Below, in pieces: positions 22,737 to 46,557 of a stretch of 64,000 nucleotides of DNA. Positions within the stretch are counted from its first letter, which is position 1, and every line of letters starts with the position of its first letter. The position numbers and the translations under genes were made by a program. The notes beneath the pieces were generated by a model. That model ran no database searches and had not been told where the DNA came from. It was given only the letters and a program-made list of their open reading frames with translations. This stretch comes from Nitrospira sp. (GTDB lineage Bacteria > Nitrospirota > Nitrospiria > Nitrospirales > Nitrospiraceae), in contig JACOEL010000003.1 in assembly GCA_024998625.1 (NCBI GenBank), positions 124,001 to 188,000 on the forward strand, written 5' to 3'.

Positions 22737-22863
22737 AGCCCGCATCATCCATGACGGTTCGTCGCGAAATCGTCCCGCCACGTCGCGAGCCAGTCGGCCG
22801 AAGGCTTGTCGCAGCAGTGGATCGGCGATTGCAGCAGAAGCGTTCATGAATAATGTAGGTTAG
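22737..22863. repeat. Degenerate copy of the CTAGCCCGGA-type REP-like element
   Basis: The left end AGCCCGCATCATCCATGA and right end TTCATGAATAATGTAGGTTAG pair with about 13 of 18 matches. Both resemble the termini of the element at 8877-9057. The right end contains the TAA stop of uvrC. The remainder of the 22500-22859 gap shows no gene. Confidence 0.55.
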
Positions 22864-24668
22864 GATGGGGTGAGGGCTTTACGTAGGGCGGCGACGGTGG
22901 AGACATCGAGGCCGGCGGACCGGAGTTCGTCGTCGGTGGCGGTGGCGACCCGTTGGAGGCTGCCGAATTGCTTCAGCAGCCGTTTGCGGCGAGTGGCGCC
23001 GATGCCGGCGATCTGGTCCAGTTCGGATGACAGCAAAGCCTTGCCTCGCAAATTCCGGTGATAGGTCAGGGCGAAACGATGGGCTTCGTCGCGAATGCGC
23101 TGGACCAGGTGGGTAGCCGGGGAGGTCGGCCGCAGGACGATGGGGTTTTTCCGGCCGGGGAGAAAAATCCGTTCGTCTTTCTCGCCGCGGGCCTTGGCCA
23201 GACCCATGATGGGAATCTGATCCTGTCCGACCTGTTTTAGCCCTTCGAGTGCGGCGCTCAACTGGCCTAGCCCGCCGTCGATAAGGATCAGGTCCGGACG
23301 GGCGAGATCTTCGGTCGCGCCGTATCGCCGCATCACGGCTTCCTGCATGCTTGCAAAGTCGTTCGCCCCCTCCACTGTCTGAATCCTGAATTTGCGATAG
23401 TCGGATTTCTTGGCTTGACCGTCTTCCCACACGACCAGCGAGGCAACCGATTGATTGCCCAGGATGTTCGAAATGTCGAAGCCTTCAATCCGGCGAGGGA
23501 CCGTGTCGAGGCGAAGCAGACGTTTGAGTTCAGCCGTCGCTTGCCGGTCCAGTGCCTCATTGCGGAGATGATCGGCAACGGCCGCGGCGGCATTTTCTTC
23601 CGCGAGGAGGACTAGTTGATGCTTGGCGCCCCGTTCCGGAGCCAGGAGACGCACGTTGTCGCCGCGTTTCCCGCTCAGCCACTGTTCGATCAGCGGGGCC
23701 TCGTCGAGGGTTGTGGGGACCAGCAGTTCCTTGGGCGGTTGCCCGTCCTTGTTGTAGAACTGCTCGATGGCCGAACGCACGAGTTCCTCGTCGCTCGAGT
23801 CGGCGGATTGAGGCCAGAAGAAATCTTGTCGTCCGATCAACAAGCCTCCGCGCACGAACAGGAGTTGGAGATCCGCAGCAGCGCCTTGACGGGCCAGCCC
23901 GATCACATCCTGGTCGGTTGTGCTGACCTGGGTGATGCGCTGTTTTTCCAGCGTGCGTTCGACGTTAAACAGGCGATCACGCAACCGGGCTGCCTCCTCG
24001 AACTCTTCCCGTTCCGCCGCCCGCTCCATGTCCTCACGCAGGCTGTCCAGTAGTTCCCGGTCCCGCCCTTCGAGAAACTGGCGAACCTGTTTGACGATCT
24101 GGTGGTATTCCTCCCGCGACTGGTTACCGGTGCAGGGAGCCATGCAGCGTTTGATCTCGAACTCGATGCAGGCCCGGTCGGCCCGGCCGTCGATGTCGAT
24201 TTCACAGGTGGCCAACGGAAACGCTTTGCGGATGACCCTCAGTGTTTCACGGAGTGCCCCGGCCGGGGTGTAAGGTCCGTAGTAGAGGGCTCCGTCTTTC
24301 TGCACCCGCCGGACGATGGAGAGGCGCGGAAAGTTCTCTTTGATCGGCAGGCGAAGATAGGGGTACTGCTTGTCGTCACGCAGGACGATATTGAAGCGCG
24401 GTCGATGGCGCTTGATCAGATTGCTTTCGAGGATCAGCGCTTCCAGCTCGGAGCGGGTGACTATGGTTTCGAGGTCGGCAATCTCATTGACGAGCAGGGC
24501 GGTCTTTGGCGTCTGGTCGCTGCCTCTCTGAAAGTAGGAGCGGACCCGGTCCGCCAACACGGCGGCTTTTCCGACGTAGAGGATCTCCCGCTTCGCGTTT
24601 CGAAAGAGGTAGCAGCCCGGTTGCTCCGGCAGGTGATCGAGCTTGGATTGGAGCGTCTCGGTCGTCAT
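22860..24668 (-). CDS. uvrC: Excinuclease ABC subunit C
   Basis: A 602-residue UvrC that makes both incisions in nucleotide excision repair after UvrA/UvrB damage recognition. Visible parts: N-terminal GIY-YIG nuclease (PGCYLFRNAKREILYVGKA), Cys-rich cluster area with CIEFEIKRCMAPCTG, UVR domain that contacts UvrB (EREEFEEAARLRDRLFNVER), RNase H-like 5' nuclease (IEGFDISNILGNQSVASLVV) and C-terminal helix-hairpin-helix (LDQIAGIGATRRKRLLKQFG). Length is normal. The start codon lies inside a heptamer repeat block and has no strong ribosome-binding site. dapF-like and VOC genes lie upstream on the same strand. Confidence 0.97.
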   Translation of the reverse strand: MTTETLQSKLDHLPEQPGCYLFRNAKREILYVGKAAVLADRVRSYFQRGSDQTPKTALLVNEIADLETIVTRSELEALILESNLIKRHRPRFNIVLRDDKQYPYLRLPIKENFPRLSIVRRVQKDGALYYGPYTPAGALRETLRVIRKAFPLATCEIDIDGRADRACIEFEIKRCMAPCTGNQSREEYHQIVKQVRQFLEGRDRELLDSLREDMERAAEREEFEEAARLRDRLFNVERTLEKQRITQVSTTDQDVIGLARQGAAADLQLLFVRGGLLIGRQDFFWPQSADSSDEELVRSAIEQFYNKDGQPPKELLVPTTLDEAPLIEQWLSGKRGDNVRLLAPERGAKHQLVLLAEENAAAAVADHLRNEALDRQATAELKRLLRLDTVPRRIEGFDISNILGNQSVASLVVWEDGQAKKSDYRKFRIQTVEGANDFASMQEAVMRRYGATEDLARPDLILIDGGLGQLSAALEGLKQVGQDQIPIMGLAKARGEKDERIFLPGRKNPIVLRPTSPATHLVQRIRDEAHRFALTYHRNLRGKALLSSELDQIAGIGATRRKRLLKQFGSLQRVATATDDELRSAGLDVSTVAALRKALTPS

Positions 24669-24752
24669 ACGTCAGCCGTCATCCGTCAATCGTAAGAATA
24701 GCAGGAACCGTAGTCCTTTATCTTCCCGTTTGACGAATGACGCGTGACGGCG
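24664..24752. repeat. Heptamer repeat block, inverted halves (uvrC / dapF-like gap)
   Basis: Left half: CGTCATA, CGTCAGC, CGTCATC, CGTCAAT in exact 7-bp steps. Right half, inverted: GACGAAT, GACGCGT, GACGGCG. The halves can pair into a hairpin across about 35 bp. uvrC begins inside the first unit. Confidence 0.7.
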
Positions 24753-24767
24753 AGTTCCTATCCTGCT

Positions 24768-25637
24768 TCAGCGCAACATCCGCACGAACGACGGACTCAG
24801 AGTGCCCCGGGCGACCTCTGCGACCGGGCCTTTCATCGTGAGGCTGAAGTCCTGGGCGACCTCGATGTTGAGCGTGCCGCCTGGCATCTTGACCGTGACC
24901 GGTCCCTTCACCAGACCGAGACGGACGGCGGCGCTGGCGGCCGCGCAAGAAGACGATCCGGAGGCCTGCGTTTCACCGGCGCCGCGCTCCCAGATCAGAA
25001 TAAAGATTTCTTTCGGGCCGGTGGGCACCGCGAGTTGGACGTTGGTTCGTTTCGGAAAGAGGGAATGGTTTTCGAGCGCAGGTCCCAGCGTGAGAAGGTC
25101 CTCCCTCGTCCAGGTTTCGCCAGGCTGTTTAAAAATCACGCAGTGGGGGTTACCGACGCTGACACCGGTGAATTGCAACGACCGCCCGGCGGCTTCGATA
25201 GGTTGCTGGATCAGTTCATCGACCGTGACTGTGCAGGGGAGGGCGCCCGGTTGAAACGTCGCCCGGCCCATTTCGACCGTAGCGGCAGCGGCATCGCCGT
25301 GGCGGTCGAGATGGAGGGCAATGGAGACCAAGCCCCCCTTGGTTTCGACGGTGAAGGCTCGCTTCTTGGTTTTGCCGGTGGCATGCAGGTAGCGGGCGAA
25401 GATGCGCAGGCCATTGCCCGATTTTTCGGCCTCGCTGCCGTCGGGATTGTAGATGCGCAGGCCGAAGTCGGCTTTCTTCGAGGGGACCAGCGCCAGGATT
25501 CCGTCGCTGCCTAGTCCCCAGTGGCGATCGCAGATGCCGCGGATTTTGCCGGGGGTGAGTTTGAACGTCAGTTCAGTGGGATCCATCACCACATAGTCGT
25601 TGCCGAGTCCATGTCCGCGGAAAAACCCGTTCTTCAT
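24768..25637 (-). CDS. DapF-fold protein lacking both catalytic cysteines
   Basis: A 289-residue homologue of diaminopimelate epimerase, with the family landmarks GLGNDYVVMDP, WGLGSDGILAL, NPDGSEA, SVGNPHCVIF and ERGAGETQ all present. The two catalytic cysteines are both serine: Ser 73 in AEKSGNGLRIFARY (E. coli Cys 73) and Ser 226 in GETQASGSSSCAA (E. coli Cys 217). DapF inverts LL- to meso-diaminopimelate by two-base thiol chemistry, so this protein is unlikely to do that reaction efficiently, though the substrate cage looks intact. AAGGAG precedes the ATG. It may be an enzyme with another reaction, or a divergent epimerase; a second copy elsewhere in the genome would settle this. No other dap gene is in the window. 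Confidence 0.85.
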   Translation of the reverse strand: MKNGFFRGHGLGNDYVVMDPTELTFKLTPGKIRGICDRHWGLGSDGILALVPSKKADFGLRIYNPDGSEAEKSGNGLRIFARYLHATGKTKKRAFTVETKGGLVSIALHLDRHGDAAAATVEMGRATFQPGALPCTVTVDELIQQPIEAAGRSLQFTGVSVGNPHCVIFKQPGETWTREDLLTLGPALENHSLFPKRTNVQLAVPTGPKEIFILIWERGAGETQASGSSSCAAASAAVRLGLVKGPVTVKMPGGTLNIEVAQDFSLTMKGPVAEVARGTLSPSFVRMLR

Positions 25638-25659: not shown

Positions 25660-25788
25660 CGTCATGCGTCGAACGTCAATCGTCATCCGTGATGTGTGAG
25701 GAAGAAGGTACTTCGGCGGGCGTGAGCCCGTCAATACGCTGAGGAGTCCAAGAAGGGGATCTTGCGAATGACGTGTGACGAATGACGG
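25660..25788. repeat. Heptamer repeat block (dapF-like / VOC gap)
   Basis: Left array CGTCATG, CGTCGAA, CGTCAAT, CGTCATC, CGTGATG (25660-25694); right inverted array GACGTGT, GACGAAT, GACGGAG (about 25769-25789). A short GGGC/GCCC hairpin lies between them. Confidence 0.65.
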
Positions 25789-25791
25789 AGG

Positions 25792-26190
25792 CTACGCCGT
25801 TGCCATGCCCGGCGGGCGTTCGATGAGTTCCACTTCGTAGCCGTCCGGCGCGTCGATAAAAATAAAGCGGCTACCGGAAAACGTTTTGGTCGGGCCGTCG
25901 GTGATTTTCACTTGCTTGGCTTCCAGCGCCCGGATCGTGTCGTCCAGGTTCTCGACCTGAAAGGCGAGGTGCACCAGGTCTTCCTGCACGGTCACCGGTC
26001 CGCTGGCGGGAAAGCTGCACAGTTCGATCAGTTCTTCACTGTTAGGAACTTTGAGAAATGCGAGGTGCGACCCCCGCGGCGAGACCTTGCGCTCCAGCAC
26101 CTCCAGGCCCAATACGTGCTGATAGAAGCGGATCGTTTGATCCATGTCGCTGACCCGCATGCGGGTGTGCAATAGCTTTGTGACGCGCAT
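25792..26190 (-). CDS. VOC-family protein (glyoxalase I-like)
   Basis: 132 residues forming the two beta-alpha-beta-beta-beta units of the vicinal oxygen chelate fold. Likely metal ligands are His 8 (LLHTRMRV), a Glu in ELIELCSF, His in DLVHLAFQV and Glu in GYEVELIE, the His-Glu-His-Glu set of lactoylglutathione lyase. Length and the DMDQTIRFYQHVLGLEVL segment fit GloA. The substrate cannot be fixed from sequence; methylglyoxal detoxification is the simplest reading. AGGAG precedes the ATG. The 160-bp gap upstream holds a REP-like palindrome. Confidence 0.88.
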   Translation of the reverse strand: MRVTKLLHTRMRVSDMDQTIRFYQHVLGLEVLERKVSPRGSHLAFLKVPNSEELIELCSFPASGPVTVQEDLVHLAFQVENLDDTIRALEAKQVKITDGPTKTFSGSRFIFIDAPDGYEVELIERPPGMATA

Positions 26191-41771: not shown

Positions 41772-41848
41772 CGTCAACCGTCAACGGTCATTCGTCAAAC
41801 GTGAAAGGCGGATTTTCATCAATTGGTCTCTTTACGAATGACGATTGA
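41772..41848. repeat. Heptamer repeat block (nuoE / nuoF gap)
   Basis: CGTCAAC, CGTCAAC, GGTCATT, CGTCAAA, CGTGAAA in perfect 7-bp register, then an inverted half (ACGAATGACGATTGACC) after about 27 bp. Confidence 0.7.
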
Positions 41849-41852
41849 CCAA

Positions 41853-42404
41853 TTACGCCTTCTGAGGCTCCGGCCACATGAAGGGGCCGGTCTTCAGCGA
41901 ACAGGTGCCGGTCTGCCGCAAGTCGGCCAGAATGCGATCCAGCTTCTCTTCCGTCAGCCGCTCGTAATAGTCGTCGTTGACCTGCATCATCGGGCCGGTT
42001 CCACATGCCGCCAGACATTCCACGATACTCAAGGTAAAGAGCTTGTCCGGCGTCGTTTCGCCCGGCTTGATGCCGAGTTTCGCGCTGATCCAGCCGATGA
42101 GCGTGTCTGAGCCGACGAGCGCGCACATGAGCGACTTACAGACCTGCAGGTGAAATTTTCCCACCGGCTTCAGGTTCAGCATCGTATAAAACGTGGCCGT
42201 CTCGTACACCTGCGGCGGAGTCAGCCTCAAGATCCCGGCAATTTCCTGCATCGCCGCTTCGGTGACGTAGCCCTGTTCCCGCTGCGCCATGTACAGCAGA
42301 GGCAACAATGCCGACCGTTTCACCGGATAACGAGCCAGGATGTCGTCTATTTCGCCCTTGTATTTGTCCTGCAACATATCTCTTCTACCAAAGGAGTGAG
42401 CCAT
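41853..42404 (-). CDS. nuoE: NADH-quinone oxidoreductase subunit E
   Basis: 183 residues from the first ATG; the second in-frame ATG at 42377 (MLQDKYKGEI) has a better purine-rich leader (AGAAGAG) and gives 174. Thioredoxin-like fold with four 2Fe-2S ligands: VCKSLMC and CLAACGTGP, the C-x4-C and C-x3-C pairs of cluster N1a. YETATFYTMLNLKPVGK is the usual NuoE segment. The 81-bp gap to nuoCD contains two GTGCGCGAG/TTGCGCGAG repeats instead of heptamers. Confidence 0.96.
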   Translation of the reverse strand: MAHSFGRRDMLQDKYKGEIDDILARYPVKRSALLPLLYMAQREQGYVTEAAMQEIAGILRLTPPQVYETATFYTMLNLKPVGKFHLQVCKSLMCALVGSDTLIGWISAKLGIKPGETTPDKLFTLSIVECLAACGTGPMMQVNDDYYERLTEEKLDRILADLRQTGTCSLKTGPFMWPEPQKA

Positions 42405-44248: not shown

Positions 44249-44332
44249 GTCGTCGTCAATAGTCACTCGTCAATCGGAAGCGGCGAGGCTCAGGCTGTTC
44301 GGTCGACGTGTGACGCTTGACCGTTGACGAGT
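44249..44332. repeat. Heptamer repeat block (nuoB / nuoCD gap)
   Basis: Left: GTCGTC, GTCAATA, GTCACTC, GTCAATC. Right, inverted: GACGTGT, GACGCTT, GACCGTT, GACGAGT. About 28 bp lies between. Confidence 0.7.
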
Positions 44333-45281: not shown

Positions 45282-46557
45282 GACAGACCTGTGAATCGTG
45301 AAGCGTCGTTCGTGAAGCGTCGGTTGACGTCTGACGATTGACGGATGACGGGCTCTTCGTTTGCAAAATCGATCCGAAGAACGGCTGGAATTTCAGTCCG
45401 TCCAATTCGGGCTTGGCCATACCCTTGTGCTGTATCAACACTTTGAATGTGCGACCCATGCCGTCCGGCCGCAGCAGGTGTATCGCCGCGTAAAACTCCG
45501 GCGATTCCGGCTGGAGCGATTCCAGCAATTGTTCAGCGCCAAGGCCGATCAGGAAACTCATCTGATTCGTAAAGCCGGTCACGTCCAATCCGGCCTGTTG
45601 ACCTGCTTGCGCCAAGGCGGTGAAGTCCACGTGCGCGGTCATGTCCTGCTCACCCACCCGGTCGTACGCATCCTCCGAGGTGGTTTGGTGGTAGTAGCAG
45701 AGGAACGTGCCGTTCTTGCGATCCTGGCCATAGAGGTCTTCGGCGGTGTGACCGTAGTCGATCGTCAGCACGGCGCCGCGCGCCATCACCTGTGCTACCT
45801 GCGTCATCCAGTTGACTGCGTCGAGATTGATTTCAGCCCGATAGCCGTCCGGCAGGTTGATTCCGCCCTCTCGCAGGTAGGCGGTGAGTTCAGTGGAGAG
45901 GGGGCGGTAGACCTCGCTGAATCGCTCGTCGCGAGACTCGACATAGACCTCCTGTGGCCGGCCGTCGAGCACTGCTAGCCGGTGAACAGGAAAGGCATCC
46001 ACGAGTTCATTCGAAAAAAAGAGTCCGGTGACGCTGTTCGGCGGCAGATCGTCCAGGCGGTCGAGCCAGGCCACGCGACCGGCCTCTCCCACCCAGGGCG
46101 CCAGATTGTGTTGTTGCTGGGTGCGCATCGCGGCGCTGCGCTCGATCAGGATGTAGCGAAGTCGGTTGCCGAGGTTCTCGGGCGCGTTCCGGCAGGCGGT
46201 CAGGAAATCCCGGGCCAACAGTCCCTTGCCCGCTCCCATCTCCACCACGGTGAAGGGATCCGGATGCCCGAGGAGGGCGTCGAGTTGCTGGGCCTGTCTG
46301 GCTAACGCCTGGCCGAGGATCGGGTGCACGTCGGAGCTCGTATAGAAATCGCCCGACCATCCGATGCGTTCCTGGGTCGGATCGTCGACAGGGCGAACAT
46401 AGTAGCCGTGCTGCGGATGATACAGGGCGAGCTCCATGAAGCGGGCGAACGGAATCGGACCCGTGGCTGCGATTTCAGCCCTGATTTCCGCCAGGAGTTG
46501 TGGATGCCCAATGCTCAAAGTGACACCACCCTTGTCGGTAGCCGCCTCCCGTTTCAT
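45274..46557 (-). CDS. MidA/NDUFAF7-family SAM-dependent methyltransferase, leads the nuo operon
   Basis: 427 residues. IPFARFMELALYHPQHGYYV, GDFYTSSDVHPILGQALARQ, VVEMGAGKGLLARD (SAM loop), LFFSNELVDAFPVHRL and LTIDYGHTAEDLYG are the hallmarks of the COG1565/MidA family. In mitochondria the homologue NDUFAF7 dimethylates an Arg of NDUFS2 and is needed for complex I assembly. Here the gene is transcribed with and overlaps nuoA, which supports a complex I maturation role in this bacterium. The last roughly 24 residues (from SSVNRQTS on) are encoded by a heptamer block and lie outside the family fold. The ATG at 46557 lacks a good ribosome-binding site; a TTG 13 codons on, preceded by GGGTGG, is possible. 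Confidence 0.9.
   Translation of the reverse strand: MKREAATDKGGVTLSIGHPQLLAEIRAEIAATGPIPFARFMELALYHPQHGYYVRPVDDPTQERIGWSGDFYTSSDVHPILGQALARQAQQLDALLGHPDPFTVVEMGAGKGLLARDFLTACRNAPENLGNRLRYILIERSAAMRTQQQHNLAPWVGEAGRVAWLDRLDDLPPNSVTGLFFSNELVDAFPVHRLAVLDGRPQEVYVESRDERFSEVYRPLSTELTAYLREGGINLPDGYRAEINLDAVNWMTQVAQVMARGAVLTIDYGHTAEDLYGQDRKNGTFLCYYHQTTSEDAYDRVGEQDMTAHVDFTALAQAGQQAGLDVTGFTNQMSFLIGLGAEQLLESLQPESPEFYAAIHLLRPDGMGRTFKVLIQHKGMAKPELDGLKFQPFFGSILQTKSPSSVNRQTSTDASRTTLHDSQVCHG
45291..45351. repeat. Heptamer repeat block inside the 3' end of the methyltransferase gene
   Basis: GTGAATC, GTGAAGC, GTCGTTC, GTGAAGC, GTCGGTT and then inverted GACGTCT, GACGATT, GACGGAT, GACGGGC, in continuous 7-bp steps. 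Unlike the others it is translated, giving the tail of the MidA-like protein. Confidence 0.7.

Follow-up and report, generated by a model that had tools for sequence, protein, structure and literature searches.

A conserved DapF subfamily with serine at both catalytic cysteine positions in Nitrospira and other bacterial phyla

The window analyzed here is a 64,000-nucleotide stretch of a Nitrospira sp. genome (assembly GCA_024998625.1, contig JACOEL010000003.1, positions 124,001 to 188,000; genome size 4.42 Mb, rated 100% complete). On its minus strand, an open reading frame with an ATG start (24768-25637) encodes a protein of 289 aa that matches Pfam DAP_epimerase (PF01678, 1.7e-53) and, over residues 5-280, the NCBIfam model TIGR00652 DapF (225.9 bits vs a cut-off of 114.65). 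Based on these matches and on comparison with solved DapFs, the predicted product is a full-length DapF homolog. Its AlphaFold2 model (pLDDT 95.7) has the two-domain DapF fold, with Anabaena DapF (9mro, Z 38.8) as the best structural match and Arabidopsis DapF (3ejx) at Z 37.6, in a second look at Foldseek matches. Two conserved neighbors on the same strand flank the gene: a uvrC-like gene downstream (22860-24668; 602 aa, named from the sequence of the ORF itself rather than a family scan, and by synteny) and a VOC/glyoxalase-like gene upstream (25792-26190; family match and synteny).

Neither of the two catalytic cysteines of the canonical thiol DAP epimerase is present in the window protein. 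Aligned to solved DapFs, Ser73 (codon TCG, 25419-25421, minus strand; contained in NPDGSEAEKSGNGLR) stands opposite catalytic Cys73, and Ser226 (codon TCC, 24960-24962, minus strand; contained in WERGAGETQASGSSSCAA) opposite catalytic Cys217 (H. influenzae numbering). A preliminary description of this DNA had placed serines at both catalytic base positions of a DapF homolog; its coordinates and residue numbers were correct, and the alignment bore out the assignment. Because the catalytic-cysteine feature was tested and found absent, we file the protein in a Ser/Ser subfamily and not among the canonical thiol (Cys/Cys) DapFs. The same description had called the surrounding motifs intact, which holds for the conserved core. 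The stretch N64-P-D-G-S-E-A-E-K-S73-G-N-G-L-R matches, by eye, the PROSITE DapF signature N-x-[DN]-[GS]-x-x(4)-C-[GI]-N-[GA]-x-R (quoted in PMC8225329) save for the catalytic Cys, and the substrate contacts N13, N64, N75, N163, N199, E217, and R218 are 99-100% conserved within the Ser/Ser clade (DAP-binding roles of these Asn, Glu, and Arg residues and of the helix N-termini are described in PMC5296763 and PMC12039745). Yet the clade also diverges in its own way, with P65, K72, I79, S229, and Y15 where Cys/Cys DapFs mostly have A, M, C, G, and F. Lys72 (25422-25424, minus strand) lies immediately N-terminal to Ser73 by alignment, in a loop that curves round the substrate (PMC12039745); the position is K in 99% of Ser/Ser proteins and R in two, Met or Phe in Cys/Cys DapFs, and Phe or Leu in those with only the first cysteine replaced (Ser/Cys), K occurring in neither of the latter types. 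Tyr15 (GNDY by alignment; 25593-25595, minus strand) is likewise Y in 99% of Ser/Ser proteins, whereas every Cys/Cys or Ser/Cys DapF that was read has F, and His165 and Glu217 are invariant across all three types. Two other cysteines were considered as relocated catalytic residues. Cys231 occurs in 149/153 Ser/Ser proteins but is missing in f18 and some Hydrogenothermaceae members, and Cys36 is common in Cys/Cys enzymes as well, so neither qualifies as a replacement thiol.

The double serine extends to relatives, a matter the preliminary description had raised, and reaches across phyla. Targeted searches of a phylum-level sample (296 genomes) and a named genome collection, which do not amount to a census, yielded 196 distinct DapF proteins that could be read: 153 Ser/Ser, 33 Cys/Cys, 10 Ser/Cys, and no other type. 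Within the genus, the protein was found in 28/29 genomes; all full-length copies (27/27) are Ser/Ser, and the one remaining copy, a fragment, retains Ser73. Ser/Ser hosts include Nitrospirota, Latescibacterota, Gemmatimonadota, Dadabacteria, Armatimonadota, Rokubacteria, Bacteroidota (Prolixibacteraceae and Flavobacterium), and Aquificota. Hydrogenothermaceae, the family of a Sulfurihydrogenibium genome, read Ser/Ser at 28/28 loci with one DapF gene per genome, dapF being split into two fragments in two of these genomes. One locus (L064, G193:C22:829719-832333) holds tandem Ser/Ser dapF copies with a VOC gene between them, 85-86% identical to the window protein.

In a DapF tree built without columns 72, 73, and 226, the Ser/Ser proteins formed a single clade (support 100/100) on a long branch. 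The Ser/Cys DapFs grouped within a different DapF branch, where they have one or two origins, so serine at the first site has evolved two times or more. Among the Ser/Ser genes counted, 68 use a TCN codon for Ser73 and 15 an AGY codon, which indicates that the amino acid, not one codon, has been kept. Purifying selection on Ser/Ser dapF is strong: median omega was 0.05 among 20 genus- and family-level genes (Nei-Gojobori; many pairs with saturated dS). Judged from these sequences, the Ser/Ser pair is no local mutation; it is invariant in one clade.

The host appears to need meso-DAP, the substrate of LysA, given that its genome contains lysA, dapA, dapB, and dapL as well as a MurE in which the DNPR motif, characteristic of MurE enzymes that add DAP, is present. 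The preliminary description had offered another route to meso-DAP as one way to account for the missing thiols, naming a second dapF with both cysteines, ddh, and dapL. A search by homology for second DapF, Ddh, and DapF2 types gave no support to such a route. No second DapF-family protein, Cys/Cys or otherwise, occurs elsewhere in the 100% complete host genome. Ddh, a true bypass of DAP epimerase, was absent over cut-off from the 29 genus genomes, where weak matches in 10 (about 21 bits over 49 positions, cut-off 30) were rejected, and from 32/33 genomes with Ser/Ser or Ser/Cys DapF (exception G320). The gene dapL is indeed present, but its product is LL-DAP, the substrate of DapF, so DapL is no substitute for the epimerase. 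Each genome has one Ala_racemase_C protein, as needed for D-Ala, and therefore shows no sign of a PLP-type DapF2. A second LL-DAP-aminotransferase-like gene in the host (L032, G000:C14:36733-37875) scored 461 bits, below the DapL cut-off, and several LysA matches in Bacteroidota and Latescibacterota lay just below theirs. The complete genome of Nitrospira moscoviensis, which is cultured in mineral medium on nitrite and CO2 and has lysine in its biomass (PMC8407350), encodes only a Ser/Ser DapF, without Ddh.

Gene context is the strongest evidence that Ser/Ser DapF keeps the DapF job. In the host and all Nitrospira-type loci checked, Ser/Ser dapF sits between uvrC and the VOC gene and does not adjoin lysine genes. 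In related genera and families, Cys/Cys and Ser/Cys dapF lie inside lysA-dapF-dapA-dapB (L120-L139; not visible for L132), DapA/DapB not being visible at the f9 Ser/Cys loci L141 and L143. The host operon reads argH-lysA-dapA-dapB, with a lysA-dapA gap of 24 bases and no dapF between. In the order searched, eight f1 genomes had only Ser/Cys DapF, the remaining f1 and all f2 genomes only Ser/Ser, and the two never occurred together. Mutual exclusion combined with an operon lacking dapF is the signature of one gene displacing another. In Bacteroidota, the Ser/Ser gene adjoins dapL and/or lysA, whose products act just upstream and just downstream of DAP epimerization in the pathway, in one case (L211) lying between both; the neighboring dapL matches the equivalog-level model TIGR03542 at 626 bits (cut-off 365).

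We consider it likely that the window protein is the host DAP epimerase, a member of an old Ser/Ser subfamily that replaced the operon dapF, with the Ser73 and Ser226 hydroxyls most likely serving as acid and base. As a sole copy under strong selection that sits with lysine genes, Ser/Ser DapF is probably a working enzyme, and its context suggests that it most likely epimerizes DAP in the cell; the assignment of the two serines as the acid/base pair itself is less certain. The preliminary description had also proposed either a serine-based variant or a new function, and the former is now the better supported, the latter being disfavored by the operon swap and by the dapL/lysA neighborhoods. 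Mechanistically, the alpha-proton would be taken off LL-DAP and one returned on the other face through the two hydroxyls. In the AlphaFold2 model, Ser73 precedes helix 74-86 and Ser226 precedes helix 227-239, so that each would sit at the N-terminus of one of two helices that face each other, as the cysteines do in ordinary DapF. These N-termini may aid the serines as they do cysteines, the DAP-binding residues being unchanged, and the co-conserved Lys72 and Tyr15 are candidate helpers that might activate the serines. The Ser/Ser gene would have taken the place of the dapF of an ancestral lysA-dapF-dapA-dapB operon. With a pKa of about 16, serine is ill suited to act as the base here and is far weaker than a thiol. 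Single Cys-to-Ser mutants of histidine racemase, a related enzyme, are greatly impaired (PMC11602996), and replacing Cys by Ala in C. glutamicum DapF leaves almost no activity (PMC5296763). The broader proposal, on which our confidence is evenly divided, is that the Ser/Ser pair, helped by Lys72 and Tyr15, performs a thiol-free 1,1-proton transfer at the unactivated alpha-carbon of an amino acid and that Nitrospira, Hydrogenothermaceae, and other lineages obtain meso-DAP from Ser/Ser DapF alone, the first-site serine of Ser/Cys DapFs having arisen separately.

DAP might instead be epimerized with Lys72, Tyr15, His165, or Glu217 transferring the protons and the serines only positioning the substrate. 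We regard this as rather unlikely, though the residues invite it: Lys72 directly adjoins Ser73 in the loop on the substrate side, and every clade member has K or R there, with K never found in the Cys-containing types, Tyr15 replaces Phe clade-wide, and His165 and Glu217 are invariant in all DapF types. No basic residue lies within 4 Å of the cysteines in ordinary DapF (PMC12039745), so a lysine near the catalytic site would be new. Both hydroxyls, however, are invariant despite the codon-family switches at Ser73, which argues that the serines themselves matter, and in the separate Ser/Cys lineage position 72 is Phe or Leu, not Lys.

A more radical reading, which we think quite improbable, is that epimerase activity has been lost, the protein having acquired a new substrate or a dehydratase/isomerase-type or non-enzymatic role while an unknown protein makes meso-DAP. 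Loss of both cysteines is a classical sign of lost activity; fold relatives changed function on losing Cys (the Ser/Thr trans-3-hydroxyproline dehydratase, PMC4113996, and PhzF), and a non-homologous epimerase, DapF2, is predicted in Staphylococcus (PMC9026213). Some genomes also hold Ser/Ser and Cys/Cys DapF together: the Myxococcota-like G312 and G313 have an additional Cys/Cys DapF inside lysA-dapF-dapA-dapB, and in the Bacteroidota MAG G329 a short contig carries an extra copy of Cys/Cys type. Ddh accompanies Ser/Ser DapF in G320, and two MAGs with Ser/Ser dapF, G315 (Dadabacteria) and G327 (Rokubacteria), had no lysA or murE over cut-off, which may mean that the bins are incomplete or that the protein is used differently there. 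In these genomes, the Ser/Ser protein could have another role. As a general account, however, this reading requires that a single unknown epimerase occur in Nitrospirota, Aquificota, Bacteroidota, and others, each time coinciding with a Ser/Ser DapF, although no second alanine-racemase-like protein was seen, the substrate contacts are conserved, and context links the gene to dapL, lysA, and the loss of the operon dapF. Explanations by sequencing error, by pseudogene formation, or by serine codons being read as cysteine are refuted, since both serines occur in all 27 full-length genus homologs and all 153 distinct clade members from independent assemblies, omega of about 0.05 argues against a pseudogene or error, and no single recoded codon could explain a Ser73 written as both TCN and AGY.

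Searches of the open-access literature turned up no Ser/Ser or Cys-less DapF. Canonical DapFs (H. influenzae, E. coli, Anabaena 9mro, Arabidopsis 3ejx; EC 5.1.1.7) share with the Ser/Ser proteins family, fold, substrate contacts, helix N-termini at both catalytic positions, and the association with lysA/dapL; they differ in having both catalytic cysteines and in lacking the combination of Lys72, Tyr15, Pro65, Ile79, and Ser229. The Ser/Cys DapFs (L129, L131, L133-L135, L137-L139, L141, L143), found in several Nitrospiraceae genera and f9, likewise have Ser for the first Cys and are the sole DapF in the genomes searched, but they keep the second Cys, form a separate branch, and have Phe/Leu before the Ser. 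In the f1 genera, they lie in lysA-dapF-dapA-dapB. Engineered H. influenzae DapF C73S and C217S (PDB 2q9h and 2q9j; Z 33.2 and 32.6) carry the same substitutions and keep the fold; these are laboratory single mutants, whereas the Ser/Ser pair is a natural, conserved double replacement with co-conserved changes. The proline racemase superfamily has the same overall fold, and a natural first-site Ser there works as a base, as in 4-hydroxyproline epimerase B9JQV3 (Ser93/Cys236) and trans-3-hydroxyproline dehydratase B9K4G4 (Ser90/Thr256) (PMC4113996). Structural identity to the window protein is only about 14%, however; B9JQV3 keeps one Cys, and B9K4G4 is a one-base dehydratase, not an epimerase. 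The family model PF05544 gave no match to the window protein at 0.001, PF01678 being the only hit. DapF2, a PLP-dependent enzyme predicted in Staphylococcus (PMC9026213), also stands in for canonical DapF in the lysine pathway but belongs to the unrelated alanine-racemase family, whereas the window protein is a DapF homolog.

Textbooks describe cofactor-independent amino-acid racemases as thiol/thiolate enzymes, and there is continuing debate over how a thiolate can deprotonate a carbon with a pKa of about 29. The Ser/Ser DapF subfamily is real, conserved, and unexpected, and most likely works like DapF. If so, a natural hydroxyl-based enzyme would directly test explanations based on helix dipole, desolvation, and domain closure. 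Neither thiol-directed DapF inhibitors nor the disulfide redox switch of C. glutamicum DapF would apply in Ser/Ser phyla, and DapF annotation and metabolic models for nitrifiers and hot-spring autotrophs would, without notice, cover an enzyme with a different mechanism.

The short gaps around dapF in the window also contain runs of a 7-base unit, TGACGNN (24658-24749 and 25660-25792), which recur at three places further on (41772-41855, 44254-44329, and 45318-45350); the run pattern gave 14 matches vs 0.03 in shuffles.
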